Below, one piece after another: positions 2,259 to 61,842 of a stretch of 64,000 nucleotides of DNA. This DNA is from Clostridium formicaceticum (GTDB lineage: Bacteria; Bacillota; Clostridia; Peptostreptococcales; Natronincolaceae). How positions within the stretch are numbered: the first letter of the stretch is position 1; each line of letters opens with the position of its first letter. The notes beneath the pieces are model-generated. The model ran no database searches. It was not told the origin of the DNA and worked only from the letters and a program-made list of their open reading frames with translations. Position numbers and translations under genes: made by a program. The stretch spans positions 930,001 through 994,000 of the forward strand of contig NZ_CP017603.1 of the NCBI RefSeq assembly GCF_001854185.1, read 5' to 3'.

Positions 2259-3746
2259 ATGAGTCAAAAAAAAGAACAATGGGGCAGCAGGTGGGGATTT
2301 ATCGCAGCATCTATTGGAATGGCAATAGGAACTGGTAATATATGGAGATTCCCTAGAGTTGCTGCTGCCAATGGGGGAGGTCCCTTTATCATCGCCTGGA
2401 CCATTGCGCTGTTTGTCTGGGCTATTCCTTTATTAATGGGAGAAATGGTCATGGGACGGAAAACCGGATTAGGTACCATTGGTGCATTTCGAGATTTTGT
2501 AGGTCCTAAGTTTACCTGGATGGGTACTTGGATTGCTGTAGTATGTTTGGGTATTATGTTTTATTATTCTGTTGTAATGGGTTGGTGTGTCAAATACTTC
2601 ACTTTAGCCTTATCTGGTGCCTTTAAACCAGGTATGACTACAGAAGCCACTGAAGCAGTTTGGCAGGTTTTCACTACCACGCCTTCACAAACAATACTTT
2701 TCCATTTTATTTCTATGGCATTAGCTGGTTTTATTATTTATAAAGGTGTTACAAACGGTATAGAAAAGGCCAGTAAAATTATGATTCCTACACTATTTAT
2801 TTTATTAATTGTAGCTGTTATAAGATCTCTAACCTTACCTGGGGCTGCGCAAGGTCTGGAATACTTATTTAGTCCTAAGCTAGAGATGCTGGCCAACCCA
2901 GAAATTTGGTTGCAAGCCTTTACGCAAGCAGCTTGGTCAACAGGGGCAGGATGGGGATTTATTATCACTTATTCTGTTTATACCAGCGCTAAGGAAGATA
3001 TCGCAGGTAATTGTCTTATCATGGGTTTTGGGGACAACCTCGGAGCCTTAATCGCAGGCATGACCGTCCTGCCTGCCATTTACGCTCTATCCCCTACGCA
3101 AGAATTTGCAAGCGATGCTCTGGCCTCTGGTAATACAGGTATTACCTTCATTTATCTAGCGCAACTGTTTACAGAAATGCCTGCTGGAAGATGGCTGGCA
3201 GCAATATTTTTTGCTTCTATGGCAATTGCAGCACTATCTTCTCTTCTTCCGATGATCGAAGTAGGGGTACGAAACTTAATGGACATGGGTCTTGAAAGAA
3301 AAAAATCAACTTTAATTATTGTCATCAGTGGCTTCCTTCTAGGCGTTCCCTCCGCTTATAGTTTAAATTTCCTAGATAATCAAGATTGGGTTTGGGGAAT
3401 CGGATTATTAGTAAGTGGATTATTTGTCGCCTTTGCCCTCATGAAATATGGTTTAGAAAAAGCTAGAACTGAGATTATTAATACCAAATGGTCGGACTTT
3501 CAAGTTGGTAAGTGGTGGAGTAATTGTGTACTACTGTTCCCAGTATTTTTTGTCATTATTACAGGTTGGTGGTTATGGCAAGCTATTACCTGGTACCCAG
3601 ATGACTGGTGGAATCCCTTTGAAGTCTTTAGCTTCGGCACTATTATATTTCAATTTATCATTCTCTTATTAATTTCTTGGTTAACCAACAACTGGCTTGC
3701 AGACAAAATAACAAAAGGGCAAGATATTACCAAGCAGGTATCCTAG
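2259..3746 (+). CDS. sodium-dependent NSS-family amino acid transporter
   Basis: An integral membrane protein of 495 residues in the neurotransmitter:sodium symporter family, which imports amino acids with Na+. The N-terminus has the family signature WGFIAASIGMAIGTGNIWRFP, containing the unwound first helix that binds substrate and sodium, and about 11-12 hydrophobic segments follow. The chosen ATG at 2259 lies 10 nt after GAGGAGG (2242-2248); earlier starts lack room for the ribosome site. A MetS-like small subunit gene follows 24 nt downstream. By analogy with the corynebacterial MetPS pair the cargo could be methionine or alanine, but no SAM riboswitch precedes it, so the substrate is inferred only. 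Confidence 0.92.
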   Translation: MSQKKEQWGSRWGFIAASIGMAIGTGNIWRFPRVAAANGGGPFIIAWTIALFVWAIPLLMGEMVMGRKTGLGTIGAFRDFVGPKFTWMGTWIAVVCLGIMFYYSVVMGWCVKYFTLALSGAFKPGMTTEATEAVWQVFTTTPSQTILFHFISMALAGFIIYKGVTNGIEKASKIMIPTLFILLIVAVIRSLTLPGAAQGLEYLFSPKLEMLANPEIWLQAFTQAAWSTGAGWGFIITYSVYTSAKEDIAGNCLIMGFGDNLGALIAGMTVLPAIYALSPTQEFASDALASGNTGITFIYLAQLFTEMPAGRWLAAIFFASMAIAALSSLLPMIEVGVRNLMDMGLERKKSTLIIVISGFLLGVPSAYSLNFLDNQDWVWGIGLLVSGLFVAFALMKYGLEKARTEIINTKWSDFQVGKWWSNCVLLFPVFFVIITGWWLWQAITWYPDDWWNPFEVFSFGTIIFQFIILLLISWLTNNWLADKITKGQDITKQVS

Positions 3747-3770
3747 TACTGCTATAAGGAGGAAAATATT

Positions 3771-3875
3771 ATGTCTACTACATCTATTATTATGATGGTT
3801 CTTGTTTTAGGATTCTATGGTTTGGGGTTTGTTTTCCTATTAAGCAAAGTCTTTCAATCACAGGCTAATAAGTAA
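3771..3875 (+). CDS. MetS-type small subunit of the NSS transporter
   Basis: A 34-residue single-span membrane peptide starting MSTTSIIMMVLVLGFYGLGF and ending in a short polar tail. It has a strong ribosome site (AAGGAGGAAAATATT before ATG) and lies 24 nt after the NSS transporter. A tiny one-helix protein encoded right after an NSS gene is the MetS arrangement known from the corynebacterial methionine/alanine importer, where both parts are needed. It is too short for most gene callers. The hairpin terminator at 3882-3918 closes the two-gene operon. Confidence 0.8.
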   Translation: MSTTSIIMMVLVLGFYGLGFVFLLSKVFQSQANK

Positions 3876-3881
3876 GTAAAT

Positions 3882-3918
3882 AAAAAACACGTTGGTAATC
3901 CTCCAACGTGTTTTTTAT
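3882..3918 (+). terminator. intrinsic terminator after NSS/MetS operon
   Basis: Inverted repeat of 14 bp (arms 3882-3895 and 3903-3916, core ACACGTTGG/CCAACGTGT) followed by T-rich sequence. It lies 6 nt after the MetS stop. Confidence 0.9.
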
Positions 3919-3999
3919 TTATGTCCACATTTTTTCTCCTTAATTTCTACTTTTATCCCCAGTACCCACAATATATTGTGTATATATTTTAAAAATAGG

Positions 4000-5889
4000 C
4001 TAGTCTTCTATTTTGTTATAATCGATTTGGTATTTTTTCATTTTGCGATATAATGTATTTCTTCCAATACCTAAGGCTTCCGCCGCTAAACTAATATTTC
4101 CTCCTGTTTTTTCTAATACCTTTTTAATGTGTCTGTTTTCAACTTCTTCTAATTTATCTTCTTGAGATATACTAACGGCTCTCTCTACAACTTTTGAAGG
4201 TTCTCCAGTTTCCCACAGGTGGTTCCCCTCTGCATTAATAATTTGTTCTACCATATTTTCTAGTTCTCTAATATTACCTAACCAAGGAAGGTTCGTCAGA
4301 TTCTCTATTGCTTCCTTCGAGAGAGCCACTGTTCTTTTTCCTAACTTTAGTGATTTTGTAGCCATAAAGTAGTCTATCAACAGCGGAATATCTTCTTTTC
4401 TTTCTCTCAAAGAAGGCAGCTTTAAGGGCAGCACGTTTAACCTATAATAGAGGTCTCTTCTAAAATTACCCTTTTCCACTTCCTGTCTTAAGTCCTTATT
4501 TGTAGCGGCTATAATACGAACATCCACTTCGATTTCTTTATTTCCTCCTACACGAAAAAGCTTACTCTCTTCTAGCACTCTTAAAAGATTGGTTTGCATA
4601 TCCAATGGCATTTCCCCTATCTCGTCTAAAAACAAGGTTCCTCCATCTGCTAGTTCAAACTTTCCAGGATGCCCCCCCCTTTTAGCCCCTGTAAAGGCCC
4701 CTTCTTCATAACCAAAAAGTTCTGATTCTATAAGATTTCTAGGCAATGCTCCACAATTAATTGCCACAAAACTTTCTTCGCGACGACTGCTGTGATTATG
4801 AATAGATTGTGCAAAAACTTCTTTACCGGTACCACTTTCTCCAGTGATTAATACCGTGGAAGGACTGTCGGAGATTTTTTTAGCATACTCTATAATCTGC
4901 ATAAATCTTTCGCTTCGCCCAATGATTTTATCAAAGGTATAATAAGCCTGCTGTCCTGTCATTTTATTTGCTAACTTTCTAGCTTTTTTTATTTCACGAA
5001 TGACACAAACAATCCCCTGAGGCGTCTGATTAGGGTCCAGTATAGGATAGGCACTTAAAGTGCAGTGAATCCTTTCTTCCTTTCCCTTTAAAAAGGCTTC
5101 TTCTTCCAGGTAGGTAATATGTTTTGCTACACTATCTTGAATCCCCTTCCATCCCTCCACTAACGCTTCTACTTTTATGCCAATAATTTCTTGCTGGGTA
5201 TATCCCAGCATCTCCATGGCAGTTTTATTCATGGTCTTCATATAACCCTTAGGGCCTATGGTGAAAATCCCTATGGTAATGGAGTCAATAATGGTTTCAA
5301 TATACCTTTTTTTAACTTCAAGCTTTCTATTGGTTTCTCTAATGTTTAACATTTGTTCTATGGCATGAGCGGCTGCCACCACCATCCCCAATGTATGAGA
5401 ATGAACAAGATGGCTATAACCAGTAAGGTTTAATGTGCCTATAATCTTCCCTTCTGCATTTCTAATAGGTGCAGCTGAACAGGTCCATCTGTGGTAAGCC
5501 TTTATAAAATGCTCCTTCCCTGAAATTTGTATAGGCATCCCCTCCACCAGTGCTGTCCCCATGGCATTGGTGCCTATATGTTCTTCATTCATAAAAGCTC
5601 CCGGTGTCATCTCTAAATCAAAGGCCACCTCTAATACATCTTCATCTCCTATAACATTTAAAATACAGCCTTCATCATCTGTTAAAATTACAAAGAAGTA
5701 AGAGCCCTTTACAAAGTTGTACAACTGATTCATAAAGGGTTCTGTGGTTACAATAAGATTACTATTAGCTTCTAGCCTCTTTTGAAGTTCATCTTCATGT
5801 AAAATCCTGCTACTGTAAACTCTATTATCATCTACACCAAACTTGATAGATCTTTGATGGGATCTAGCAATATAATCCTTTGCATCCAT
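4000..5889 (-). CDS. sigma-54 enhancer-binding regulator (GAF-PAS-AAA+-Fis), AcoR-like
   Basis: This 629-residue activator should drive sigma-54 promoters by ATP hydrolysis. Residues of about 60-185 form a GAF-like sensor typical of AcoR relatives (HIGTNAMGTALVEGMPIQISG). About 195-300 is a PAS domain. About 320-555 is the AAA+ module, with Walker A GESGTGKE, the sigma-54 contact loop GAFTGA and Walker B LFLDEIGEMP. The C-terminus is a Fis-type helix-turn-helix (GGNISLAAEALGIGRNTLYRKMKKY). It is encoded just downstream of the AOR operon, beyond that operon's terminator. A canonical sigma-54 promoter with tandem upstream repeats precedes aor, so this is the best candidate activator of that operon. 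The inducer, perhaps an aldehyde or alcohol, is not known. Confidence 0.9.
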   Translation of the reverse strand: MDAKDYIARSHQRSIKFGVDDNRVYSSRILHEDELQKRLEANSNLIVTTEPFMNQLYNFVKGSYFFVILTDDEGCILNVIGDEDVLEVAFDLEMTPGAFMNEEHIGTNAMGTALVEGMPIQISGKEHFIKAYHRWTCSAAPIRNAEGKIIGTLNLTGYSHLVHSHTLGMVVAAAHAIEQMLNIRETNRKLEVKKRYIETIIDSITIGIFTIGPKGYMKTMNKTAMEMLGYTQQEIIGIKVEALVEGWKGIQDSVAKHITYLEEEAFLKGKEERIHCTLSAYPILDPNQTPQGIVCVIREIKKARKLANKMTGQQAYYTFDKIIGRSERFMQIIEYAKKISDSPSTVLITGESGTGKEVFAQSIHNHSSRREESFVAINCGALPRNLIESELFGYEEGAFTGAKRGGHPGKFELADGGTLFLDEIGEMPLDMQTNLLRVLEESKLFRVGGNKEIEVDVRIIAATNKDLRQEVEKGNFRRDLYYRLNVLPLKLPSLRERKEDIPLLIDYFMATKSLKLGKRTVALSKEAIENLTNLPWLGNIRELENMVEQIINAEGNHLWETGEPSKVVERAVSISQEDKLEEVENRHIKKVLEKTGGNISLAAEALGIGRNTLYRKMKKYQIDYNKIED

Positions 5890-6014
5890 AGAAATCCCCC
5901 CAACTTTTAAACTACCTTTTTAAATTATTCAATTTTATTATGAAAACTCCTTCTTTTTTATTCTTATAAAAAATGCCTCTTTTATGCTAGTTTTTGTAGA
6001 TTAGCTAAAACAAA

Positions 6015-6071
6015 ATAACACAGAAAAAAATTCCAGAATCCAACACACTCTGGAATTTTTTTCTGTGTTAT
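6015..6071 (-). terminator. long perfect hairpin terminator of the AOR operon
   Basis: The arms 6015-6037 and 6049-6071 are a perfect 23-bp inverted repeat around an 11-nt loop, containing an A/T-rich block inside the stem. It lies 75 nt after the last gene of the AOR operon and separates it from the downstream regulator. Confidence 0.8.
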
Positions 6072-6145
6072 ACTAAAACAATAGACTTCCCCGTATTTTC
6101 AAAGCTTACATTAGTATTTTTATTTCAATAGACTGCTAATATACT

Positions 6146-6370
6146 TTAACCTCCCCCTACCGGTGGGAAAAGAGATAGCGTATCATTATCTTCTAAAACT
6201 GTATTCAACTCTTGATGTCTACCGTTAATAAGGATGATTGCTACTTCTTCTTCAGGGATATTTAGAAGTTCTATAACATCCTTTGGAGTAGCACCTTGCG
6301 CCAAATCCATCATCATTTCTTTTTCACGGTTTTCTCTAAAAGTCGCAAATAATCTCACATTTACCTGCAC
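6146..6370 (-). CDS. MoaD/ThiS-like sulfur-carrier protein
   Basis: A small ubiquitin-fold protein of 74-77 residues ending in the glycine tail FPPVGGG. The terminal Gly-Gly is what E1-like enzymes adenylate and thiocarboxylate, so sulfur can be passed to precursor Z in pterin synthesis. It is the last gene of the AOR operon, so it most likely serves the tungstopterin cofactor. The frame opens at a GTG at 6379, but AGGAGG ends next to it. The GTG at 6370 has the ideal 8-nt spacing and is preferred. An E1-like partner is encoded far away at 39455-40138, and thiF at 49013-49825. Confidence 0.85.
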   Translation of the reverse strand: MQVNVRLFATFRENREKEMMMDLAQGATPKDVIELLNIPEEEVAIILINGRHQELNTVLEDNDTLSLFPPVGGG

Positions 6371-6439
6371 CCTATTCACCTCCTATTTTCATTATACTAT
6401 AATTCCATCCACCGAGGAAAGAGGATAAACCACACTTAT

Positions 6440-7633
6440 TTATGGACAAGCGATAATGCGTCTAGCCCAAAGACATTCAGCGCAGGAAGGACTGTTTCCC
6501 CAACAATCCATCTCATTGCTATCGGTATAACTACAACCTTCCAAAGACCTGCAATCAGTACAGGAGGGAAAATGATTTTCATTGACAGTCCGCCTAAAAT
6601 TTACATAGCCAGAATCCGTCCATATGTCTTGAAGCTTTTTCTCATTAACATTGCCTAAATAAAAAGCGTACATATCCTTTTTTCTTCCATAGATATAACA
6701 GTGATAGGTATGCATCAAAGCATAACAGGGACTTACATTTCCCTGGTAGTTAATACACAAGGATTTATCCTTTACAAATTTACAACTTCGTTCTGTTCTT
6801 AGCTTCATATTAGACATTTGTGCTTTAATGGTAGTTAGTTGGGCATCCTTTTCAAACATACGTCCAGTGTCATCTATATCATAAACAATTTCATCCTTCA
6901 TGGATTCGTGATAAGGTATTAAATTGCTCACGATAATTTGACTGGCACCTAGATTATACGCCATGCGGATTAACTTAGGCAACTTATCGTAATTTTTTTT
7001 CATGGCTACAAACTCGATTCCCAACTCTGGTTTTCTGGTTTTTTGTTCTCGTTTCATGGCCTGCAGATTTGCAATGTTTTGAGAAACACTCTGAAAATCA
7101 GCGCCTTGTCGGATTTCATTATATTCTTCCTCTTCAGGGCTATCTAGAGAAGTAAAGAGAATATCTAGTTCCAGGTCAATTAACTGTTGAATATTTTCTT
7201 TTCCCAGATAGGAACCATTCGTGATCATTTCCGCACTTAGACCAATTCCCTTTACTGCCCTTAACATATCAAAAATCCTTGGATGCATCATAGGCTCACC
7301 AAAACCTCCGAAATGGACGGACTCTAGATTTGGCAGTTCCTTAAGGTTTTCTAATATATTTTCAAAGGTCTCCCATTCCATATGCAGCAAACAGTCCTGC
7401 CAAGAACTGCGAATACAGGTGATACAGTCAAAGTTACATTTGGTAGTCACCTCTATATATACTCTTTTTATATCCGGTAGGAGAGGGATTAGTCGATAAC
7501 CCTCCTCTGTTTGAACAAACAGCACTTCTTGTTCTCCCTCTACAGGCAGCTTCACACATCCATCCTTAGTAACCTTAAGCTTTTTTCCTGCCGCAAAAAG
7601 TTCAGTCCCCAAAGATTTAAACGATTTTTTCAT
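6440..7633 (-). CDS. radical SAM/SPASM maturase of tungsten aldehyde oxidoreductase
   Basis: A 397-residue radical SAM protein with the cluster motif CNFDCITC (C66, C70, C73). The Cys-rich C-terminal SPASM-type region runs from CTDCRSLEGC to CWGNSPSCAECLWARRIIACP. This domain pair, and the position beside aor, match the family described as tungsten cofactor oxidoreductase radical SAM maturase. Its chemical step on the cofactor or enzyme has not been defined. It lies between the two MoaD-like genes in the AOR operon, 28 nt after the upstream one. Recognition of the family is confident; the exact reaction is unknown. Confidence 0.9.
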   Translation of the reverse strand: MKKSFKSLGTELFAAGKKLKVTKDGCVKLPVEGEQEVLFVQTEEGYRLIPLLPDIKRVYIEVTTKCNFDCITCIRSSWQDCLLHMEWETFENILENLKELPNLESVHFGGFGEPMMHPRIFDMLRAVKGIGLSAEMITNGSYLGKENIQQLIDLELDILFTSLDSPEEEEYNEIRQGADFQSVSQNIANLQAMKREQKTRKPELGIEFVAMKKNYDKLPKLIRMAYNLGASQIIVSNLIPYHESMKDEIVYDIDDTGRMFEKDAQLTTIKAQMSNMKLRTERSCKFVKDKSLCINYQGNVSPCYALMHTYHCYIYGRKKDMYAFYLGNVNEKKLQDIWTDSGYVNFRRTVNENHFPSCTDCRSLEGCSYTDSNEMDCWGNSPSCAECLWARRIIACP

Positions 7634-7661
7634 ATTATCTCCCCCATGATGTCAAAAACGA

Positions 7662-7994
7662 TTATTCTCTTCCTTTGATTTTAAAGTTCGCTGGATTCCC
7701 TTGGTTTTTTCCATAGAATCCCATTGCCAATCGATATGGCCCAGGACATCCCGGTGGCAGAAAAGCTACTCGATCCCCTGGATGTATAACATAGTCTAAT
7801 GCTTGAACAAAACCATTTACAAAAATAACTTCAACCTCATCCCAAGAAACATTCATCTTCTCAGCCAGTTCCGTACCTTTAATCGGTTCCTCTAGCTCCA
7901 TAATGACAGGTATAGACCCATATTTCTTTCTAAGATGTGCATCCAACTGTAGAAAACCTCTTACTTCAATGGTTTTTTTACCTTCTTCTGGCAT
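7662..7994 (-). CDS. second MoaD/ThiS-like protein with C-terminal extension
   Basis: A 110-residue protein with a predicted ubiquitin-like fold. Its core resembles ThiS/MoaD (MNVSWDEVEVIFVNGFVQALDYVIHPGDRVAFLPPG). The usual terminal Gly-Gly is replaced by PPGCPGPYRLAMGFYG and a basic tail, so it probably cannot be a conventional thiocarboxylated carrier unless it is processed. Such extended MoaD-like proteins occur next to AOR genes. It is second in the operon, about 430 bp after aor and 28 nt before the radical SAM gene. The role is presumably in tungstopterin assembly or insertion; that is inference from context. Confidence 0.75.
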   Translation of the reverse strand: MPEEGKKTIEVRGFLQLDAHLRKKYGSIPVIMELEEPIKGTELAEKMNVSWDEVEVIFVNGFVQALDYVIHPGDRVAFLPPGCPGPYRLAMGFYGKNQGNPANFKIKGRE

Positions 7995-8427
7995 ATAAAG
8001 CTATCCCTCCTTAACTACTGTAGCCTTTCATGATAAAAGGCCTATCAACAATTCTCTCAAGTATACTTATGAGTCAAGTCCAGCAAAATTTTAAGCATCA
8101 TCCTTTTCAACAGATTTTCTGCAGGTTTTAAAATTAACAAATTTACCAATATGCAAGGATTTTATTATTTAAGTATTCCAGTATTTCTTTACTCTTATTC
8201 TATCACAGATGGACGTCTTAGCAATACACCAAAAATAAACTTTATTTATAAAAGGCATCTGCTATCATTTTTCCAATTAAAATCGTGTCTTTTCTCAAAA
8301 GTATTTATTAAAAGTGTGGGATAAAAGATTAGAAAATTTGAAGCCGGACCTAAGTCCGGCTTTTTTAGTTAAATAACATCTTATTATAACTCCGCAAAGC
8401 CAACAGGCTATAAAAACAGAGATTTAA
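7995..8427. other. aor-to-maturation-gene spacer with stem-loop
   Basis: A 433-bp gap within the AOR operon. It holds a strong symmetric stem-loop at 8341-8362 (AAGCCGGAC, loop CTAA, GTCCGGCTT) with a T-run on the plus strand. In the operon direction the stem is followed by TTCAAATTTTCT, a weak terminator tail, so it may partly stop transcription after aor or protect its 3' end. No ORF with a ribosome site was seen in the rest of the gap. Confidence 0.5.
8341..8366. terminator. stem-loop after aor, possible attenuator
   Basis: Nine-bp perfect arms with a 4-nt loop, GC-rich core GCCGGAC/GTCCGGC. The T-run is good on the plus strand and only moderate on the minus strand, where aor is read. Partial termination would set more aor than maturase. 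Confidence 0.6.
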
Positions 8428-10191
8428 TTAGCAGTTACAAGCTCCTTCATTTTCAAAAGCATAAACTTCGTCGATTTCTTCAGGAGTGAAGTCCCAAACT
8501 GCATTGTGTGGAGGACATGGCTCATACTCGAAGAATTCTGGTAATCTGTCATGAGCATTAGTGAAGCCAGCTGCTTTGTTGAAAGCACGTTCAACCTTAA
8601 GAACAGATTCACCAAGCTTGTTTACGTCTTCAGAAGTTAAAGATGTACCGTATTGAGCATTGATCATATCAATTAGTGATTGATGTCCAGCAGGATTGTC
8701 AGCTGTTCCGAAGGTTATGAACAAGCACATACCAGTACTATCAACAGCGGCTGTTGCAATTTGCATTGCACGCGAATATTCGATTTGACCATCTTTCTTA
8801 AGTGGATCGATATCAGCACCAACTTTTAAGATGTTACCAGAGATACAGTATCCAGCAGTATGGTCAGCACCCATTGTACTTGTAGCATAGGTTAAACCAA
8901 TACCCTTAACTGGGCGTGGGTCGTAAGCAGGGATACCTTGGTCTTTTACTACAGGAGTTCTGTAAAGACCACAAACCTTACCTACAACAGCAGTACCACT
9001 ACCTAAGATTCTTCCTAATGGAGTAGGCTTACGGATTTCTTTAATAGCTTCTAATGCAGCTTTTCCATCGCCATAAGGAATTAATCCACCCTCCATAGCA
9101 GTAGCTACAGCAACAGCTGTTTCGATACTATCAACACCGATGTCATCCATTTCACGGTCGCAGTAAGCGATAGCATCTAAATCTTTGATACCAGCATCTG
9201 CACCAAGACCCCAAATTGTTTCATATTCAAAACCACTTGTGATATATTTACCATCTTTGTCTGGGTACCACTGAGAACATCTGATGATACAACCAGCATG
9301 ACAACCATGAGAAACTTTACCGTCACCACCACGCTCTGAAATTGTAGCGTTTAATGTTTCACCAGAGATATTGTCGTTATAGTCAATACGTCCAGCAGTA
9401 AAGTTCTTAGTTGGTAAACCACCAGCTTCATTTAAGATGTTAACCAATACGTTAGTACCGTATGCAGCTAGACCTTGGCCAGAAACTGGATGATCTAACA
9501 TAGCTTTCGCAAATACTTTTGAAGCTGCTTTAAACTTCTCAGGATCTGCTATAGGAACTGCACCAGCACCAGCATCATCGATAACAAGAGCTTTTACTTT
9601 CTTAGAACCTAATACCGCACCTAAACCACCACGGCCAGCACTACGGATATTGCCTTCTGGATCTTTGAAAGAAATATTTGCAGAAGGCAGACGGTTTTCA
9701 CCTGCTGGACCAGCTAAACCAATACCAACTTTTGCACCATATTTTTCACTTAATATTTTGATTGCTTCGTAGTTACCACAGCCTCCAAGAATTTCAGCTG
9801 GAGCTTCGTCTATAGTAACACCATTCACATCAATTTTAATTACATAGAACTTGTCATCTGCAGGCATTCCCTCGATAACTAAAGCTTTGATACCCATTTT
9901 AGCCATTTTTTGAGAGAAAGAACCACCAGTATTACTTTCCTTGATTGTACCTGTTAATGGACTCTTAGCACCAACAGAAAGACGTCCAGAGTTAGGAGCA
10001 CTAGTACCGCTTAGTAAACCAGGAGCAAAGATTAACTTGTTGTTTTTACCTAGCGCATGGCAAGTAGGCTTTACTTCATCATTAACAAAGTTAGAAGTAA
10101 GGGCACGACCCCCTAAGCCTGCATATTTCGCGGGAACTTCTTCAGTAGTAACTTTCAATGTTGTCATGTCTACTCTGATAAACTTGTTCAT
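8428..10191 (-). CDS. aor: tungsten-containing aldehyde ferredoxin oxidoreductase
   Basis: A 587-residue enzyme of the AOR family, which interconverts aldehydes and carboxylic acids with ferredoxin at a bis-tungstopterin site. The N-terminal domain shows the family start (VDMTTLKVTTEEVPAKYAGLGGRAL) and the pterin-binding pattern SAGRGGLGAVLGSKKVKA. The [4Fe-4S] ligands appear as C297, C301, C305 and C489. The first three are spaced CX3CX3C, whereas the Pyrococcus enzyme has CX2CX3C. Length is normal. It is the first gene of an operon with a radical SAM maturase and two MoaD-like genes, and has a sigma-54 promoter at 10252-10269. Substrate range cannot be read from the sequence. Confidence 0.93.
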   Translation of the reverse strand: MNKFIRVDMTTLKVTTEEVPAKYAGLGGRALTSNFVNDEVKPTCHALGKNNKLIFAPGLLSGTSAPNSGRLSVGAKSPLTGTIKESNTGGSFSQKMAKMGIKALVIEGMPADDKFYVIKIDVNGVTIDEAPAEILGGCGNYEAIKILSEKYGAKVGIGLAGPAGENRLPSANISFKDPEGNIRSAGRGGLGAVLGSKKVKALVIDDAGAGAVPIADPEKFKAASKVFAKAMLDHPVSGQGLAAYGTNVLVNILNEAGGLPTKNFTAGRIDYNDNISGETLNATISERGGDGKVSHGCHAGCIIRCSQWYPDKDGKYITSGFEYETIWGLGADAGIKDLDAIAYCDREMDDIGVDSIETAVAVATAMEGGLIPYGDGKAALEAIKEIRKPTPLGRILGSGTAVVGKVCGLYRTPVVKDQGIPAYDPRPVKGIGLTYATSTMGADHTAGYCISGNILKVGADIDPLKKDGQIEYSRAMQIATAAVDSTGMCLFITFGTADNPAGHQSLIDMINAQYGTSLTSEDVNKLGESVLKVERAFNKAAGFTNAHDRLPEFFEYEPCPPHNAVWDFTPEEIDEVYAFENEGACNC

Positions 10192-10251
10192 AAAACTAAC
10201 CCCCTTGATAATTTTACGTTATTTTTTTGAAATTTTATTCAATTACATATA

Positions 10252-10269
10252 ATGCAATTAGTATGCCAA
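10252..10269 (-). promoter_or_regulatory. sigma-54 (-24/-12) promoter of the AOR operon
   Basis: Read on the minus strand the sequence is TTGGCATACTAATTGCAT. The invariant GG and GC are separated by exactly 10 nt as sigma-54 promoters require, with TGGCA and TTGC intact. It ends about 60 nt before the aor start. Confidence 0.85.
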
Positions 10270-10361
10270 TTAGTACATTTGCTTTTTCAAAAAAACAAAA
10301 GCGCTGAAATACAACGTTTTCTTCTCGTAAAATTCTGTATATTTGACAAGTGTTTTGTTAA

Positions 10362-10431
10362 TTGTTCCATATTGGATCATATTCCACCATAGCGCTTGTA
10401 CCATTTTGATACATTGTACCGTTTTGATGCA
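10362..10431 (-). promoter_or_regulatory. triple 18-bp upstream activating repeats for the sigma-54 AOR promoter
   Basis: Three related 18-mers lie at 10362-10379 (TTGTTCCATATTGGATCA), 10396-10413 (TTGTACCATTTTGATACA) and 10414-10431 (TTGTACCGTTTTGATGCA); the last two abut. Each is roughly palindromic (TGTA...TACA). They lie about 95-165 bp upstream of the sigma-54 promoter, the normal place for enhancer-binding protein sites. The GAF-type activator at 4000-5889 is the likely ligand-responsive binder. Confidence 0.7.
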
Positions 10432-10502
10432 ATTTTTAAGCGCTTGCTTAAAAATATATTGGTACTCCTTCTATAATGAGGAAGTTCCGTCATATTTTTA
10501 AT

Positions 10503-10545
10503 ACTGACACTCTCACGCCTAAAGGCATGGTATTCTTTCCTTTAA
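10503..10545 (-). repeat. degenerate hairpin resembling an IS200/IS605-type element end
   Basis: Read on the minus strand this contains CATGCCTTTAGGCGTGAGAG followed by TGTCAGT. That is close to the CCCACGCCTTTAGGCGTGGG hairpin I associate with clostridial IS200/IS605-group termini. No transposase or RNA-guided nuclease gene is nearby. The rest of the 10192-10818 gap holds the sigma-54 promoter and repeats, then AT-rich DNA without further visible signals. Confidence 0.35.
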
Positions 10546-10818
10546 CAATAGCATAAAGCTCGTATCAAAACCTATATGGGTTTTATATCCCCATACTAGA
10601 TATTAATTTACTTTCACTATTTTTAATTCTTTTAATTTCTTTGTCCTGTAGTATAATGAAGTTTTTCGTATATTATCCTATCATACGAATATATCTATGA
10701 TTATTCAACATTCCGAAAGAAATCCCTTTTTTTCTTCTAAAAACTACAACTTTTCTTCCCCTTTTTTTAAATATATAATAGATTTATATGTTTTAATTAT
10801 TCTATAGGAGGAGAAGCA

Positions 10819-12774
10819 ATGAAAACTTTTAAAACCGCTTGCCCGCTGGACTGCTTTGATGTTTGCTCCATCCAGATTGATATGAAAGAAGATCGAGTAT
10901 CCTGTGTAAGGGGAGATGATCAAGATCCCATTACCAAGGGCTTTCTGTGTAAAAAAGGGAGAAATCTCTTAGAAAGGTTAAGTCACAAAAAGCGTGTTAC
11001 TGCGCCTTTAAAAAAGGTAGAGGGGCAGTGGACTACCATCAGCTGGCAAAAAGCTATTGAAGAAATTGGAAATGCTCTTTTAGCGATAAAAGACCACCAT
11101 GGGTCTAATGCTCTGATCCACTACAGTGAATCGGGGCATGGAGGGCTATTAAAAAGTATAGATACTGCTTTTTTTAATAGCTATGGAGGTGTTACAACAC
11201 CTAAAGGCAGCCTCTGCTGGGGTGCTGGCATCGAGGCTCAAACACTAGACTTTGGTGATGTTCTTGGTCATGATCCCCATGATCATCTTCACGCCAAAAC
11301 TATCCTTATATGGGGAAGAAACCCTTCCTTCACCAATGTTCATCTTATCCCCTTTTTAAAAGAAGCCCAAAGTAAGGGAACAAAACTTGTTGTCATCGAC
11401 CCAGTAAAAACAGCCACCGCCTCTTTTGCTGACTACTATTATCAAGTAAAGCCCGAAGCCGATGGTCATCTAGCGATGGCGATGGCAAAAATTATCCTTC
11501 AACAAAAGAAATACGATGCTTCTTTTATAAAAAATTATTGTAAGGGTTTTGAGGATTTCAAGGAATTTATTGATAACTTGCAGCTACAGCAACTGATTGA
11601 AGCTACGGGACTTACCAAGAAAGAGGTATACGAACTTACTGCTTTATATAGTCAACATAAGCCCTCCTGCATCATTTTAGGTTACGGCTTGCAGCGTTAT
11701 AAACGGGGTGGTAACAACATTCGCTTCATCGACGCCCTAGGAGCCCTGACAGGTAACATAGGATTAGCAGGAGGCGGGGTAAACTATGCTAATAAATCTA
11801 TCACAAAGTATATCGACTGGCATTATATAAAAAACAATCCCCTGCCATCTCCCACCTTTAAACGTCCACTGTTTTCCAAATATGTTTTAGAGGAAAATAA
11901 AGGTAAGATTCAGGGAATTGTTGTAACGAAAAGTAATGTTGTTTTGCAACTGCCAGATACCCAGAAAGCTATAGAGGCCTTCTCTTCTATTCCCTTTAAA
12001 GTCGTTATCGATCACTTCATAACAGACACGGCTGAGTTGGCTGACTATATTTTACCCTGTACTGGTATTTATGAAGAAGAAGATTTTATTTTCTCTTCTA
12101 TGTGGCATAGTTATTTTACTTATACAGAAAAAATAATGTCCCCACCTCCAAATGTAAAACATGAATTTGAGATTTTTCACCTTTTAGCCCAACATATGAA
12201 GATGAAGGATTTTCTCAGAGATTATAGCCATCCTAAACAATATTTAGAAACAGCCCTAGCACCCTTACTAAAGCATCTAGGATGTGAACTAGAAACCATC
12301 AAGGGGAAAAGAATAAAGTTAGAAACTCAGGACATACCCTGGCAAGATAAGCAATTTGCAACCACCTCTGGAAAGTTTGAATTTATTTCTACGCAGGAAG
12401 ATCTTCTGCAAGAAAATAATATAGAGGATCCTCGCTATCCGCTGCAATTTTTAACACTACATCCTAAAGCCTCCCTGCACTCTCAACATTTTATAGATGT
12501 AGAAAGAAATAGGCTTCCAGAAGCCTTCGTTAATGAAAACACCTTAAGAAAATGGAACTTAGAGGAGGGGCAAGAGGCAATGCTGGTATCTCCTAACGGA
12601 AAATTAAAGATAAGACTTTTGCTTGATGAAGGAATAGGCGAAAATATCGTCGTCTCCTATGAGGGATGGTGGTTAAAGAATCAAGGGGTAAATCATCTTA
12701 CACCTGAAGGTATTTCTGATATTGGCAATCAAGCCATCTATAATAACTGTCGATGCAAAATCATACCTATTTGA
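10819..12774 (+). CDS. molybdopterin-dependent oxidoreductase, formate dehydrogenase-like superfamily
   Basis: A 651-residue member of the DMSO reductase superfamily. The N-terminal [4Fe-4S] ligands are C8, C12, C16 and C44 (CPLDCFDVC and FLCKKG). C133 in GSLCWGAG is in the position that ligates Mo or W in cysteine-type enzymes. The middle carries bis-MGD-binding patterns (ILIWGRNPSFTNVH, LVVIDPVKTATASFAD). The C-terminus carries the dinucleotide-binding barrel (LQFLTLHPKASLHSQ). There is no Tat signal, so it is cytoplasmic. It has a good ribosome site (TAGGAGGAG) and is a single-gene unit divergent from aor. No electron-transfer subunit is encoded beside it, so its partner and substrate remain open. 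Confidence 0.85.
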   Translation: MKTFKTACPLDCFDVCSIQIDMKEDRVSCVRGDDQDPITKGFLCKKGRNLLERLSHKKRVTAPLKKVEGQWTTISWQKAIEEIGNALLAIKDHHGSNALIHYSESGHGGLLKSIDTAFFNSYGGVTTPKGSLCWGAGIEAQTLDFGDVLGHDPHDHLHAKTILIWGRNPSFTNVHLIPFLKEAQSKGTKLVVIDPVKTATASFADYYYQVKPEADGHLAMAMAKIILQQKKYDASFIKNYCKGFEDFKEFIDNLQLQQLIEATGLTKKEVYELTALYSQHKPSCIILGYGLQRYKRGGNNIRFIDALGALTGNIGLAGGGVNYANKSITKYIDWHYIKNNPLPSPTFKRPLFSKYVLEENKGKIQGIVVTKSNVVLQLPDTQKAIEAFSSIPFKVVIDHFITDTAELADYILPCTGIYEEEDFIFSSMWHSYFTYTEKIMSPPPNVKHEFEIFHLLAQHMKMKDFLRDYSHPKQYLETALAPLLKHLGCELETIKGKRIKLETQDIPWQDKQFATTSGKFEFISTQEDLLQENNIEDPRYPLQFLTLHPKASLHSQHFIDVERNRLPEAFVNENTLRKWNLEEGQEAMLVSPNGKLKIRLLLDEGIGENIVVSYEGWWLKNQGVNHLTPEGISDIGNQAIYNNCRCKIIPI

Positions 12775-12813
12775 CAAAACGCCTCCTCAAAAGAGGCTAC
12801 TGAAAACTATTTT

Positions 12814-12877
12814 TGTCATCCTGAGCACAAGCGAAGGATCTTTAAAATCTAGATTCTTCACTGTGTTCAGAATGACA
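12814..12877. repeat. short palindromic dispersed repeat (TGTCATCCTGAGC type)
   Basis: The 64-bp segment starts TGTCATCCTGAG and ends TTCAGAATGACA, with inner AAGGATCT/AGATTCTTC arms, so the whole folds as one imperfect hairpin. This sequence family is a common intergenic repeat in many bacteria. It lies between two convergent genes (12774 and 12920) and may also serve as a bidirectional terminator. A small GCCTC/GAGGC hairpin precedes it at 12781-12797. Confidence 0.65.
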
Positions 12878-12919
12878 GGTAAGGTAAAGTTTTCTTCCTA
12901 TTTTTTTAAGATGATTTAG

Positions 12920-14317
12920 TTACTGGCATATTTTTCCTGGATTTAATAGGTTTTTAGGATCAAAGACACTCTTTATCCCTCTCATTAAAGCCAAATGATT
13001 TCCTCCTAAGGATTCTTTCAGGAAACCCTTTTTAGCAAAACCAATGCCATGTTCTCCTGAAACTTGACCCCTTAGATCCCTTGCCTTGTTATACATACAG
13101 TCCATTACATCCTGTAGCGTTTTTTTCCAAGCTTCCTCTGATAATGCATCTCTTAAAATGTATACATGTAAATTACCATCTCCTGCATGCCCAAAACTTC
13201 TAATTCTAATGTTAAACTGATGCTGTAACTCATCTGTATATTTAATAAATTCTGCCACTTTATTCCTTGGTACCACTACATCACATTCATCCATTTCCGT
13301 GGTGGAAGATTTAATCGCCTCTAAGAAAGCTCCTCTAGCAGACCAAATAGCCTCTTGTCTTTCCTGGGTTTCTGAAATATACACATCTAGTGCCCCTTCT
13401 TCTAAACAAATGTGTGCCACTGTCTCATAGGCCTTTTCTACCTCCTCCTTGCTGTTGCCATCAAAGGTCAATAGTAGATAAGCATTAGAGGAATTATCAG
13501 GAAATTGCTTCCCTAGAAATTCTTCTGCTGCAATGATTGTGTCCCTAACCATAAATTCTATAGCAGTAGGAATAGCCTTTGATTTTATGATTTTAGGCAC
13601 TGTTTCAATAGCAGTTTCTAAATTTTCAAAAGGAATCAATAGGCTAAGGGTTTTTTTAGGTAATGGTAGAAGTCTTAAAATAGCCTTCGTTACAATCCCC
13701 AATGTACCTTCCGAACCAACAATCAAATCTTTGAAGCTATACCCCGAGCTATTTTTTACCACCTTGCCCCCTATTTCCATGATTTCCCCATTGGGCAGAA
13801 CCACTTCCAATCCTCTTACATAATCTCTAGTAACCCCGTATTTTACTGCCCTCATGCCTCCTGCATTGGTATTAATATTTCCTGCAATGGTGGCACTTTT
13901 TTCTCCTGGATCTGGAGGATAAAAAAGATCTCGTTCTTCTACAAACTTACTTATTTCCATTAACAGCACGCCAGGCTCTACAGTAAGCGTCAAGTTTTCC
14001 TCATCTAATTCTAAGATTTTGTTCATCTTACTCATATTCACCATGATTCCTCCATGGATGGCTACAGAGCTGCCTACCAATCCAGTACCCTGACCTCTAG
14101 GCGTAACAGGGATGTCGTTTTCATATGCATACTTCATCACTTCCGAAACCATTTGCGTAGAAAGAGGTTCTACCAATACCTCTGGCATACACTTTACTTC
14201 CGCAAGCTCATCTCGACCAAAATCTTCATTAATTTCCTCTCCAAAGAATACCCTATCTTCTCCACAGATCGCTTTTAAAACTTCTACATCTTTTGCATCT
14301 ACTTTCTTATAAGCCAT
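12920..14317 (-). CDS. lctD: FAD-linked lactate dehydrogenase subunit (GlcD/LctD type)
   Basis: A 465-residue FAD protein of the GlcD family. The PCMH-type FAD domain spans about residues 40-220 ([42 protein letters not shown]). The C-terminal cap ends in [14 protein letters not shown] and [11 protein letters not shown], typical of D-lactate/glycolate dehydrogenases. It is the last gene of an etfB-etfA-lctD set, the same order as in the electron-bifurcating lactate dehydrogenase of Acetobacterium woodii. That enzyme drives lactate oxidation by NAD+ together with reduced ferredoxin. Only 12 nt separate it from etfA. Substrate (D- or L-lactate) is inferred from the neighbouring racemase. Confidence 0.87.
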
Positions 14318-19009: not shown

Positions 19010-19079
19010 CCTTCATTGAGTAATTAACTATTAACATAAAATGAGACTTACCAAAAACCCCCATGAAGGTGTTTTTATA

Positions 19080-22000
19080 CTATACTAATCTCTTATAGCT
19101 TTCATATCTTTCTTGTGCTTCTTCTTCAGCCTTAGCAAATAAAGCTTCTGCTACCTCTGGGAAGGACTTTGTTAAGGAAGCATAGCGTACTTCGCTTAAT
19201 AAGAAGTCTTTAAAGGAAGCTTTTGGTTCCTTAGAATCTAAGGTAAATGGATTTTTACCTTCTTTCTTTAATTCTGGGTTGAATCTATATAAATGCCAGT
19301 ATCCTGCCTCTACTGCTTTTTTCGCTTGCTCTTGTGTTTTACCCATACCAGCACCAATTCCATGGGCAATACATGGTGAGTATGCGATGATGATAGATGG
19401 CCCTTTGTAAGCTTCTGCTTCTTTAACCGCCTTCATTAATTGGTTCTTATCAGCACCCATGGCTACCTGTGCAACATATACATAGCCATAGCTCATCGCC
19501 ATCATACCTAAGTCTTTCTTCTTCGTTCTCTTACCTGCGGCTGCAAACTTTGCAATCGCTGCTGTTGGTGAAGCTTTTGATGATTGTCCGCCTGTGTTAG
19601 AATATACTTCTGTATCCATTACAAGAATGTTTACATCTTCACCAGATGCGATTACATGGTCTAATCCGCCGTAACCGATATCATATGCCCAACCATCTCC
19701 ACCAAGAATCCATTGAGATTGCTTGATTAGGTAATCTTTCTTCGCAATGATTTCTTTAATAACTGCATTTGAAGCTTCTGCTTCAAGTAATGGAAGAATT
19801 TTATAGGTTGCAGCTTTTGATGCTTTACCATCTTCCTTACCATCAATCCACTCTTGGAAAGCTGCTTTTAAGTCAGCATTGATATCTAATGTCAGTGCTT
19901 CTTTCATTAAATCTTCAATTTTATTTCTAATTTGGCTTGTCCCCAACATCATACCATAACCAAACTCAGCATTGTCTTCAAATAAAGAGTTTGCCCAAGC
20001 TGGTCCTTTGCCTTGTTGGTTCTTGCAGAATGGTACAGATGGCGCACTACCACCATAGATGGATGAACATCCTGTAGCATTGGCTATCATCATTCTATCA
20101 CCAAATAATTGTGTGATTAGCTTAACATATGGTGTCTCACCACAACCAGTACAAGCTCCTGAGAACTCAAATAATGGTTGTGCAAATTGGCTGCCTTTTA
20201 CAGTTTCTATGTTGGTTAATGCTGATTTATCTGTAACAGTCAGAGCATATGCCCAGTTTTCGCTTTCTACTTCAACTTGTGGCTCAACAGGCTTCATTTC
20301 TAATGCTTTGTTCTTAGATGGACAGATATCCTCACAGTTGCCACAACCTGTACAGTCTAGTGGTGCTACCTGCATACGGTACTGTAATCCTTCAAACTCT
20401 TTACCAATTGTTTTTAATGTTGTAAATCCTTCTGGCGCATTTTTTGCTTCCTCTTCGTTTAATAGGAAAGGTCTAATTGCTGCATGAGGACATACAAAAG
20501 AACATTGGTTACATTGGATACAGTTTTCTGGAATCCATTCTGGCACAGTAATAGCAATGCCTCTTTTTTCATAAGCACTGGTGCCTAATGGGAAGGTGCC
20601 ATCTTCTGCTCCTGCAAAAGCGCTTACTGGCAGATCATCCCCTGCTTGCGCATTCATAGGTCTTAAGATATTTTTAATGAAGTCTGGTTCTTCTACTGCA
20701 GCTGCTACTTCTTCTGCTGCACCACTCCAGCCTTCAGGTACATCTATTTTTACAAGGGCTTCTACACCACGGTCTACGGCTTTATGGTTCATATTAACGA
20801 TCTTTTCACCTTTTTTACCATAAGCATGCACGATGGCTTCTTTTAAGTGCTTAATAGCATCCTCTACAGGGATAACTTCTGTTAGTTTGAAGAAGGCTGA
20901 TTGCATAATCATGTTGATTCTTCCGCCTAAACCAACTTCTGCAGCGATTGCTGTTCCGTTAAGGGTATAGAAGTTAATATTATTTTCAGCAATATATTTC
21001 TTCATACTTGCTGGTAACTTTTCTTCTAGCTCCTCTGGTGACCACATACAGTTTAATAGGAAGGTACCGCCCTTTTTCAAACCTTTTAATAAATCATATT
21101 GATTTACATAGGCTTGGTTATGACAAGCAATAAAGTCTGCTTCATCAATTAAATAAGGTGACTTGATTGGCTTTTTACCAAAACGTAAGTGTGATATGGT
21201 AACCCCGCCTGATTTTTTAGAATCATAGGAGAAGTATGCTTGTGCGTACATGTCTGTATTATCTCCAATGATCTTAATCGCTTCTTTGTTTGCACCTACT
21301 GTACCGTCAGATCCTAATCCCCAGAATTTACATCTGATGGTGCCAGGTGTTGCTGTTGAAACCTTTTCTTTAATTTCTAAAGATGTGTTGGTTACATCAT
21401 CTACAATACCTACTGTAAAGGCATTTTTAGGTGCTGTAGCCTTTAGGTTTTCGTATACTGCTAAAATTTGCGCTGGTACTGTGTCCTTTGAACCAAGACC
21501 ATATCTACCACCAATAACCATTGGTGCATTTTCTTTACCAAAGAACATGGTTCTAACATCTTGATATAGTGGCTCTCCAAGAGAACCTGGTTCTTTTGTT
21601 CTATCTAATACAGCAATTTTCTTTACTGTCTTTGGCAGTACATCAAAGAAGTATTTTTCTGAGAAAGGTCTGTATAGGTGTACTTTTACTACCCCTACCT
21701 TCTCACCTTTTGCTATTAAGTAATCAACGGTTTCTTCAATCGTATCTGTTACAGAACCCATAGCAATAATGATGTTTTCTGCATCTTCTGCCCCATAGTA
21801 GTTAAATGGCTTGTATTCTCTGCCGGTAAGTGCTGAAATTTCCTTCATGTAATCAGCTACCATATCAGGAAGAGCATCATAGTATTTATTTGCTGCTTCC
21901 TTTGCTTGGAAGAAAACATCTGGGTTTTGTGCAGTTCCTCTTAACACTGGATGTTCTGGATTTAAAGCTCTATCTCTAAAGGCTTGAATAGCATCCCAAT

Positions 22001-22586
22001 CTACTAATTTAGCAAACTCATCATACTCAATCACTTCAACTTTTTGCATCTCATGAGAAGTTCTGAATCCATCAAAGAAGTGTACAAAAGGCACTCTTCC
22101 TTTGATAGCTGCTAAGTGAGCAATACCCCCTAAATCCATAACTTCTTGAACACTACCAGATGCCAGCATAGCACATCCTGTTTGTCTTGTAGACATAACA
22201 TCTGAGTGATCTCCAAAGATAGAAAGAGCATGCCCAGCTAAAGCTCTAGCACTTACATGGAATACTCCTGGAAGTAATTCTCCAGCGATTTTATACATAT
22301 TAGGAATCATTAACAGTAGTCCCTGAGAAGCTGTAAAAGTCGTGGTTAAAGCTCCTGCTGCTAAGGAACCATGTACAGCCCCCGCTGCCCCTGCCTCCGA
22401 TTGCATTTCTACAACCTTTACAGTTTGTCCAAATAAATTTTTCTGCCCTCTAGCACTCCACTCATCAACATTTTCTGCCATGTTGGATGAAGGAGTAATG
22501 GGATAAATAGCCGCTACATCAGTAAAGGCATAGGAAACATATGCCGCTGCAGCATTTCCATCCATTGTTTTCATCTTTCTTGCCAT
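19080..22586 (-). CDS. por: pyruvate:ferredoxin oxidoreductase, copy 1
   Basis: A 1168-residue single-chain PFOR that cleaves pyruvate with CoA to acetyl-CoA and CO2 and reduces ferredoxin. The N-terminal pyrimidine-binding domain starts MDGNAAAAYVSYAFTDVAAI and has YPITPSS. Two [4Fe-4S] motifs, CIQCNQCSFVCP and CTGCGNCEDICP, lie at about residues 690-760. A third cluster site and the thiamine diphosphate domain follow, with CTGCGETPY, GGDGWAYDIGYGGLDH and the typical C-terminal tail. It is nearly identical to the copy at 29802-33308: only three amino acid differences were found (R46/E, L51/I, D442/N). This copy has the TGGTCTTACCA operator upstream, so it belongs to the lactate/pyruvate regulon. 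Confidence 0.97.
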   Translation of the reverse strand: MARKMKTMDGNAAAAYVSYAFTDVAAIYPITPSSNMAENVDEWSARGQKNLFGQTVKVVEMQSEAGAAGAVHGSLAAGALTTTFTASQGLLLMIPNMYKIAGELLPGVFHVSARALAGHALSIFGDHSDVMSTRQTGCAMLASGSVQEVMDLGGIAHLAAIKGRVPFVHFFDGFRTSHEMQKVEVIEYDEFAKLVDWDAIQAFRDRALNPEHPVLRGTAQNPDVFFQAKEAANKYYDALPDMVADYMKEISALTGREYKPFNYYGAEDAENIIIAMGSVTDTIEETVDYLIAKGEKVGVVKVHLYRPFSEKYFFDVLPKTVKKIAVLDRTKEPGSLGEPLYQDVRTMFFGKENAPMVIGGRYGLGSKDTVPAQILAVYENLKATAPKNAFTVGIVDDVTNTSLEIKEKVSTATPGTIRCKFWGLGSDGTVGANKEAIKIIGDNTDMYAQAYFSYDSKKSGGVTISHLRFGKKPIKSPYLIDEADFIACHNQAYVNQYDLLKGLKKGGTFLLNCMWSPEELEEKLPASMKKYIAENNINFYTLNGTAIAAEVGLGGRINMIMQSAFFKLTEVIPVEDAIKHLKEAIVHAYGKKGEKIVNMNHKAVDRGVEALVKIDVPEGWSGAAEEVAAAVEEPDFIKNILRPMNAQAGDDLPVSAFAGAEDGTFPLGTSAYEKRGIAITVPEWIPENCIQCNQCSFVCPHAAIRPFLLNEEEAKNAPEGFTTLKTIGKEFEGLQYRMQVAPLDCTGCGNCEDICPSKNKALEMKPVEPQVEVESENWAYALTVTDKSALTNIETVKGSQFAQPLFEFSGACTGCGETPYVKLITQLFGDRMMIANATGCSSIYGGSAPSVPFCKNQQGKGPAWANSLFEDNAEFGYGMMLGTSQIRNKIEDLMKEALTLDINADLKAAFQEWIDGKEDGKASKAATYKILPLLEAEASNAVIKEIIAKKDYLIKQSQWILGGDGWAYDIGYGGLDHVIASGEDVNILVMDTEVYSNTGGQSSKASPTAAIAKFAAAGKRTKKKDLGMMAMSYGYVYVAQVAMGADKNQLMKAVKEAEAYKGPSIIIAYSPCIAHGIGAGMGKTQEQAKKAVEAGYWHLYRFNPELKKEGKNPFTLDSKEPKASFKDFLLSEVRYASLTKSFPEVAEALFAKAEEEAQERYESYKRLV

Positions 22587-22799
22587 GTGTGATAACCTCC
22601 CTTTTTTTTATCATCATCAGCAGCGCCAACTTAATCTATCATTTATCCTCACCCTCCAAAAACTTTTCAGCGTTTTAGCTCATGAACACTAGCATCCTTA
22701 ATCCGATACTTCAAGAGGATTTTTAAAAACAATTCGCTTAAGTTAACGCTCCTATAATTATAATGCAAACAAAACCGTCCTATCGATGCCAAGGTCTTA

Positions 22800-29785: not shown

Positions 29786-29801
29786 TTGTTTTATGATGCT
29801 A

Positions 29802-32800: not shown

Positions 32801-33308
32801 AGTGTACAAAAGGCACTCTTCCTTTGATAGCTGCTAAGTGAGCAATACCCCCTAAATCCATAACTTCTTGAACACTACCAGATGCCAGCATAGCACATCC
32901 TGTTTGTCTTGTAGACATAACATCTGAGTGATCTCCAAAGATAGAAAGAGCATGCCCAGCTAAAGCTCTAGCACTTACATGGAATACTCCTGGAAGTAAT
33001 TCTCCAGCGATTTTATACATATTAGGAATCATTAACAGTAGTCCCTGAGAAGCTGTAAAAGTCGTGGTTAAAGCTCCTGCTGCTAAGGAACCATGTACAG
33101 CCCCCGCTGCCCCTGCCTCCGATTGCATTTCTACAACCTTTACAGTTTGTCCAAATATGTTTTTTTGTCCTTCAGCACTCCACTCGTCAACATTTTCTGC
33201 CATGTTGGATGAAGGAGTAATAGGATAAATAGCCGCTACATCAGTAAAGGCATAGGAAACATATGCCGCTGCAGCATTTCCATCCATTGTTTTCATCTTT
33301 CTTGCCAT
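29802..33308 (-). CDS. por: pyruvate:ferredoxin oxidoreductase, copy 2
   Basis: A 1168-residue PFOR with the same domains as copy 1, from which it differs at only three residues seen (E46, I51, N442 here). The ATG at 33308 follows a good ribosome site (AAAGGGAGG); the open frame upstream to 33338 has none. At DNA level the two genes are almost identical from about codon 60 to the stop, including silent positions. A patch around codons 44-52 is dense with differences. The TGGTCTTACCA operator of copy 1 is absent upstream, so the copies are probably controlled differently. The pattern suggests recent duplication or gene conversion. Confidence 0.97.
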   Translation of the reverse strand: MARKMKTMDGNAAAAYVSYAFTDVAAIYPITPSSNMAENVDEWSAEGQKNIFGQTVKVVEMQSEAGAAGAVHGSLAAGALTTTFTASQGLLLMIPNMYKIAGELLPGVFHVSARALAGHALSIFGDHSDVMSTRQTGCAMLASGSVQEVMDLGGIAHLAAIKGRVPFVHFFDGFRTSHEMQKVEVIEYDEFAKLVDWDAIQAFRDRALNPEHPVLRGTAQNPDVFFQAKEAANKYYDALPDMVADYMKEISALTGREYKPFNYYGAEDAENIIIAMGSVTDTIEETVDYLIAKGEKVGVVKVHLYRPFSEKYFFDVLPKTVKKIAVLDRTKEPGSLGEPLYQDVRTMFFGKENAPMVIGGRYGLGSKDTVPAQILAVYENLKATAPKNAFTVGIVDDVTNTSLEIKEKVSTATPGTIRCKFWGLGSDGTVGANKEAIKIIGNNTDMYAQAYFSYDSKKSGGVTISHLRFGKKPIKSPYLIDEADFIACHNQAYVNQYDLLKGLKKGGTFLLNCMWSPEELEEKLPASMKKYIAENNINFYTLNGTAIAAEVGLGGRINMIMQSAFFKLTEVIPVEDAIKHLKEAIVHAYGKKGEKIVNMNHKAVDRGVEALVKIDVPEGWSGAAEEVAAAVEEPDFIKNILRPMNAQAGDDLPVSAFAGAEDGTFPLGTSAYEKRGIAITVPEWIPENCIQCNQCSFVCPHAAIRPFLLNEEEAKNAPEGFTTLKTIGKEFEGLQYRMQVAPLDCTGCGNCEDICPSKNKALEMKPVEPQVEVESENWAYALTVTDKSALTNIETVKGSQFAQPLFEFSGACTGCGETPYVKLITQLFGDRMMIANATGCSSIYGGSAPSVPFCKNQQGKGPAWANSLFEDNAEFGYGMMLGTSQIRNKIEDLMKEALTLDINADLKAAFQEWIDGKEDGKASKAATYKILPLLEAEASNAVIKEIIAKKDYLIKQSQWILGGDGWAYDIGYGGLDHVIASGEDVNILVMDTEVYSNTGGQSSKASPTAAIAKFAAAGKRTKKKDLGMMAMSYGYVYVAQVAMGADKNQLMKAVKEAEAYKGPSIIIAYSPCIAHGIGAGMGKTQEQAKKAVEAGYWHLYRFNPELKKEGKNPFTLDSKEPKASFKDFLLSEVRYASLTKSFPEVAEALFAKAEEEAQERYESYKRLV

Positions 33309-33745
33309 GTGTGATAGCCTCCCTTTTTTAATTATCATGCAAAAGATATAGTCATAATTGTATATTTAGGATCATGTATCCTGTATACATAATTCTATTA
33401 TATCTAAATGTTTTCATGATTTACAGTAAAACTTTTTAGATATCTTCAATTATTTTTGCATTTTAAAACCTTTTCCTGATATTTTAAAGGTTTCACCATA
33501 AAATTTTTGAAAGGTTCAAAATACTGGAAAATATGGTACAGTCACTAACAAAGTGATCTTCTATAGCTAAAGATTTAAAAATTAAACATAATTATAGATG
33601 CGCACTTCTAAAGTTAAATTTTAATATACACGGTCTATTGCAGCTTAATCCTATCTAAGCCTCTCCCCTATAGATAAATACTATGAATAGATGATAGTAT
33701 GGTGTATAATAATATTTGAATATGTTTTATATAGGAGGTTTGTTT
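33309..33745. other. intergenic region between divergent PFOR copy 2 and cupin
   Basis: A 437-bp AT-rich gap. On the minus strand a TATAAT-like box occurs near 33400. On the plus strand TATAAT at 33705-33710 is a probable -10 for the cupin. A hairpin-like ATTTTTGAA/TTCAAAAT inverted repeat lies at about 33502-33521. No TGGTCTTACCA operator and no gene were seen. Confidence 0.4.
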
Positions 33746-61466: not shown

Positions 61467-61480
61467 TGTCGTTTCCCTCC

Positions 61481-61783: not shown

Positions 61784-61842
61784 ATCACATCTTCACTTCC
61801 TTTTTTATATTTATCATGATTTTGCTTTTAGGGTATAAGACC

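Follow-up and report, generated by a model that had tools for sequence, protein, structure and literature searches.

The closest described system is the AorR regulon of Nie, Dong and Yang (2019; PMC6615313), the main text of which predicts control of aor-moaD by sigma-54 and the activator AorR in Clostridium and Geosporobacter. The enhancer sites (UAS) assigned there to AorR are TGT/ACA inverted repeats with a 10-12 bp spacer; Clostridium formicaceticum is named in the text, and the binding tests it describes did not include aor (PMC6615313). No wet-lab test was found in the literature on AorR. A second relevant system is AdhR of Clostridium beijerinckii, which acts on adhA1/adhA2 and for which all three UAS are required in vivo (PMC7017808). 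AdhR shares with the activator studied here the GAF-PAS-AAA+-HTH domain order, sigma-54 and three UAS (the need for which has been shown experimentally for AdhR), but it targets alcohol dehydrogenases rather than an aldehyde:ferredoxin oxidoreductase (AOR) (PMC7017808). For norVW of E. coli, NorR is described as requiring three enhancer sites that scaffold a hexamer-like oligomer, and the likeness to the present case lies in the three sites and the GAF sensor (PMC2941729, citing Tucker et al., 2010). The purification of a tungsten carboxylic acid reductase from C. formicaceticum dates from 1991, as cited in PMC10816221 and PMC12096430.

The aor locus examined here lies in a 64-kb stretch of C. 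formicaceticum DNA (the window). Its sigma-54/AorR switch is not new in itself, and the locus fits a regulon type already known: the activator is linked to aor-moaD, and the dyads are situated upstream of a sigma-54 promoter without mismatches. Features held in common with the AorR regulon, as given in the main text of its description, include the aor-moaD target, the sigma-54 promoter, the UAS-promoter distance, a taxonomic range that includes Geosporobacter, and TGT/ACA inverted-repeat UAS, with a spacer of 11 bp here vs. 10-12 bp there (PMC6615313). The fixed triad of 18 + 33-35 bp and the placement of UAS inside the activator gene are not described in that main text (PMC6615313). The added detail reported here is the rigid dyad spacing, which serves two distant AOR subfamilies.

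The aor operon and its promoter

The target gene, aor (8428-10191, minus strand), encodes a 587-aa aldehyde:ferredoxin oxidoreductase with the Pfam domains AFOR_N and AFOR_C; these domains, together with the cofactor maturase nearby, place it in the tungsten AOR family, a call made from sequence. It is followed on the same strand by genes for a 110-aa MoaD/ThiS-like small protein (7662-7994; ThiS at 21.9 bits, slightly below the cut-off), a radical SAM/SPASM maturase of tungsten oxidoreductases (6440-7633; TIGR04317 at 430 bits, cut-off 380), and a second ThiS/MoaD-like protein of 74 aa with a C-terminal GGG (6146-6370; PF02597 at 47.7 bits). In almost every clostridial relative, the first MoaD/ThiS-like gene is likewise kept 3' of aor. 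Here it is separated from aor by 433 bp, and a hairpin with a weak T tract on the minus strand lies 3' of aor (8341-8362). A counterpart of the second ThiS/MoaD-like gene also follows in L164, from a same-genus relative, and in L171. The initial annotation placed a regulator next to this operon, and the activator gene at 4000-5889 indeed adjoins it and is linked to aor in many genomes, but a predicted intrinsic terminator (6020-6066, minus strand; 20-bp stem, T-rich tail) stands at the boundary. Because this strong predicted terminator divides it from the operon, the activator gene is probably transcribed on its own. An Rfam search of 3700-13000 gave no matches. Elsewhere in the window, a 3.5-kb stretch spanning a gene for a 1168-aa pyruvate:ferredoxin oxidoreductase-like protein is duplicated with 99.7% identity (19078-22614 and 29800-33338, about 10.7 kb apart).

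Upstream of aor, TTGGCATACTAATTGCA (10269-10253, minus strand) is a sigma-54 promoter with no mismatches to TGGCAYNNNNNTTGCW, the -24/-12 element itself being TGGCATACTAATTGCA (10253-10268). A perfect promoter at this place had been proposed, and its rarity and conservation bear this out. A perfect match arose in three of 3000 dinucleotide-keeping shuffles of the 400-nt aor upstream region, and the 4,586,755-bp genome (~4.59 Mb) holds 36 such matches vs. one for a reversed control pattern. From the -12 spacing, the aor transcription start is predicted at about 10242. Another perfect sigma-54-like match in the 64-kb window (13034-13049) is taken as chance, being inside a gene and without UAS.

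Comparison of aor upstream regions in relatives, suggested as a check in the initial annotation, finds both the promoter and the repeats conserved; the refuting condition named there, a lack of conservation in close relatives, does not hold. Related aor loci retrieved number 79; the conservation set comprises 32 aor upstream regions (the window plus mostly clostridial relatives). A promoter with no more than one mismatch occurs in 18 of these, against an expectation of 0.24 by shuffling, and the set contains 22 dyads at the same tolerance (0.26 expected). Among related upstream regions that bear the triad, most keep the promoter in a similar place with 0-1 mismatch. That aor is chiefly expressed from a sigma-A promoter, the sigma-54 elements being relics or minor, is a reading to which we attach hardly any probability: sigma-70-like matches occur between the genes as often as chance predicts, whereas L164, from the same-genus relative, keeps the promoter and each of the three dyads in place despite diverged flanking DNA, which implies selection. 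A further conserved block, GAAAACGTTGTATTTCA (10306-10322, minus strand), lies between the promoter and the proximal dyad, some 53 bp upstream of the -24 box; it recurs with 0-2 mismatches at a similar distance in L164, L021, and L013, and is absent from most other relatives.

Three enhancer dyads with fixed spacing

An imperfect dyad of 17 bp (TGT-N11-ACA; family consensus TGTTCC-N5-GGAACA) occurs three times in the aor upstream region, each time annotated on the minus strand. The proximal dyad, UAS3 (TGATCCAATATGGAACA; 10363-10379, also written TGTTCCATATTGGATCA), is the closest of the three to the family consensus, has the top position-matrix score of the 64-kb window (19.9), and is 111 bp start-to-start from the -24 box. 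The middle dyad, UAS2 (TGTATCAAAATGGTACA; 10397-10413, TGTACCATTTTGATACA on the plus strand), scores 16.7 and has no mismatches to TGTAYC-N5-GRTACA. The distal dyad, UAS1 (TGCATCAAAACGGTACA; 10415-10431, also given as TGTACCGTTTTGATGCA), abuts UAS2 with an 18-bp period, so that the start-to-start spacing is 18, then 34 bp. Three related 18-mers had been noted 95-165 bp upstream of the promoter, two of them abutting. The distances are right (94 bp from the -24 box to the near edge, 163 bp to the far edge), UAS1 and UAS2 are indeed adjacent, and the third 18-mer is UAS3; the unit, however, is a 17-bp dyad repeated every 18 bp.

None of 3000 dinucleotide-keeping shuffles of the 400-nt aor upstream region contained two or more dyads, compared with the three observed. 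A scan of the genome for the motif, likewise proposed earlier, returned the full triad (24 fixed positions, up to three mismatches allowed, 34-bp version) once in 4,586,755 bp, at aor and without mismatches. The three remaining AOR-family genes in this genome have no promoter-plus-triad nearby. The closest single-dyad match, at 3714575, was considered as a second AorR target and rejected because it and the promoter-like match 385 bp after it both lie within one ORF, and because the full triad (34-bp version) has no second genomic copy. Directly beside UAS1 is an inverted repeat with perfect 10-bp arms (ATTTTTAAGC-GCTT-GCTTAAAAAT; 10432-10455); this repeat and the GCGCT repeats were rejected as operators, since neither is conserved in the relative from the same genus.

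Located by the position matrix, a detection in which spacing played no part, the dyads follow one another at 18 and then 33-35 bp in 33 out of 34 upstream regions of aor; the exception is L024 (33 and 33 bp). An untrained scan of the 34 regions with the plain consensus covered 1936 pairs of spacings (17-60 bp) and has its highest values at (18,34) and (18,35), with 6.8 and 5.8 sd, respectively; these values, with sd taken over the grid, express contrast and not probability, as the sequences are related and the relatives are not phylogenetically independent. The same scan gave no signal at (18,34) or (18,35) in 35 enhancer-less aor upstream regions. Judged by eye, the distances from UAS3 to the promoter are mostly near 67, 78, 88, and 109 bp, and a group at 144-145 bp misfits helical phasing, which is accordingly not claimed. 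The distal dyads of L019, L021, and L040 sit within the 3' end of the activator reading frame. In several AOR-B loci (L124:3256, L123:683, and similar), a fourth good dyad is present 141 bp upstream of the triad, within the activator reading frame.

The triad might also be a shared enhancer that acts in addition on the neighboring molybdopterin oxidoreductase gene (10819-12774, plus strand), given that this gene and aor face away from each other across 627 bp of intergenic DNA and that this neighbor is retained in several relatives. We regard this as very unlikely: a plus-orientation sigma-54 promoter was not found before 10819, and in genomes whose activator gene is placed between aor and this neighbor, the enhancer remains on the aor side.

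A second AOR subfamily (605-aa AORs) is likewise found behind this activator family and the triad; it shares about 36% identity with the window AOR, and its nearest solved structure is the Clostridium autoethanogenum enzyme 9g7j. On the activator tree, in which some rows have incomplete flanks, AOR subfamilies A and B are intermixed; thus, the switch seems to have persisted through a change of enzyme gene. The AOR-adjacent activators do not strictly form a single clade, and the claim made here is accordingly one of linkage, not of a single origin.

The activator and its proposed mode of action

The AorR-type activator (4000-5889, minus strand; 629 aa) comprises GAF (48-179), PAS (202-304), sigma-54 AAA+, and Fis-type HTH domains by Pfam. 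As in sigma-54 enhancer-binding proteins, the AAA+ domain (PF00158, 247 bits) contains GAFTGA and the Walker A motif GESGTGKE, and the C-terminus is a Fis-type HTH (PF02954, 64 bits). Ligand sensing through an AcoR-like GAF domain had been suggested. A GAF domain is present, but the sensor is GAF plus PAS, and its nearest solved structure is that of DhaR (4lrx), a weak sequence match; DhaR, too, places GAF plus PAS in front of AAA+. The activator scores under the cut-off of every NCBIfam equivalog listed, including the DhaR family, and its target differs from those of DhaR and AcoR. AcoR of Bacillus subtilis likewise has a GAF plus PAS sensor preceding AAA+, whereas NorR has an NO-sensing GAF domain with an iron center, no PAS domain, and a motif different from the AorR dyads. 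The label "AcoR-like" does not identify a ligand, and the regulated target is aor, not aco.

Orthologues of the activator adjoin aor in several arrangements: immediately upstream in the same orientation (L019, L021, L023, L027, and L040), divergent from it (L017, L020, and L032), or downstream (L018, L164, and the window). All 10 triad-bearing genomes sampled encode an orthologue at some location (sensor identity 43-81%), vs. one of 15 triad-less genomes at a sensor identity of at least 43%. As the orthologue adjoins aor in many genomes, in varied arrangements, and is present in 10/10 triad genomes, the 4000-5889 product very likely regulates aor.

The genome holds one sigma-54 gene and about 16 other strong sigma-54 activators, and the promoter and triad could be real yet controlled by one of these, with 4000-5889 serving a different target. 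TGT-N10-12-ACA sites are common to fifteen clostridial activator groups, many of the other activators presumably bind such sites, and the orthologue is away from aor in Geosporobacter and Petroclostridium (Geosporobacter ferrireducens, 56% sensor identity). We nevertheless consider control by another activator improbable, as only the orthologue of 4000-5889 was found to track the triad, adjoining aor in several independent layouts. Moreover, its paralogue in the same genome (L165:4948-6843, at 2.58 Mb; 46% identity in the sensor, 52% overall) adjoins a phosphate acyltransferase-like gene and has no such triad nearby; it falls on a distinct branch that lacks AOR neighbors. A second complete sigma-54 arrangement in the window (60306-63999, minus strand) includes a 386-aa sugar-acid dehydratase-like protein, a function assigned by reading the sequence only, and a perfect promoter match (61972-61957) right after a GAFTGA-containing activator gene (62119 to the window end); it possibly resembles the XduR/uxaA group of Nie et al.

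That the AorR-type activator at 4000-5889 switches on aor via the three dyads and the sigma-54 promoter is the reading in which we place high confidence; the predicted terminator between its gene and the operon counts against it. The dedicated, inducible sigma-54 control suggested in the initial annotation is likewise favored by the conservation of promoter and enhancers and by the linkage of the activator, which make such control the probable arrangement. In the mechanism we propose, AorR would bind the three dyads upstream of aor as dimers. The promoter would be silent until AorR, freed by its GAF/PAS sensor on an intracellular signal, assembles an active hexamer, which would contact sigma-54 RNA polymerase at 10268-10253 by DNA looping and remodel it, turning on aor plus the cofactor-maturation genes. 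We infer that the three dimer sites template the hexamer, since three dimer sites correspond to six subunits and NorR and AdhR each need three sites. The signal would be a metabolite tied to AOR chemistry (the acid/aldehyde couple or redox state). For the fuller proposal, in which the fixed 18 + 33-35 bp array templates the hexamer, the activator-enhancer pair is kept across AOR exchange, and the enhancer resides in the 3' coding end of the activator in some species, we see the chances as evenly balanced.

In gas-fermenting clostridia, tungsten AOR carries out the acid-to-aldehyde step on the route to ethanol (PMC12727526); the AORs of 605 aa found with this activator family are close matches to that enzyme. 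The invariant spacing of the triad offers a clean test case for the assembly of a hexameric activator on DNA, and knowledge of the activator and signal for AOR would allow control of the acid-to-aldehyde step.
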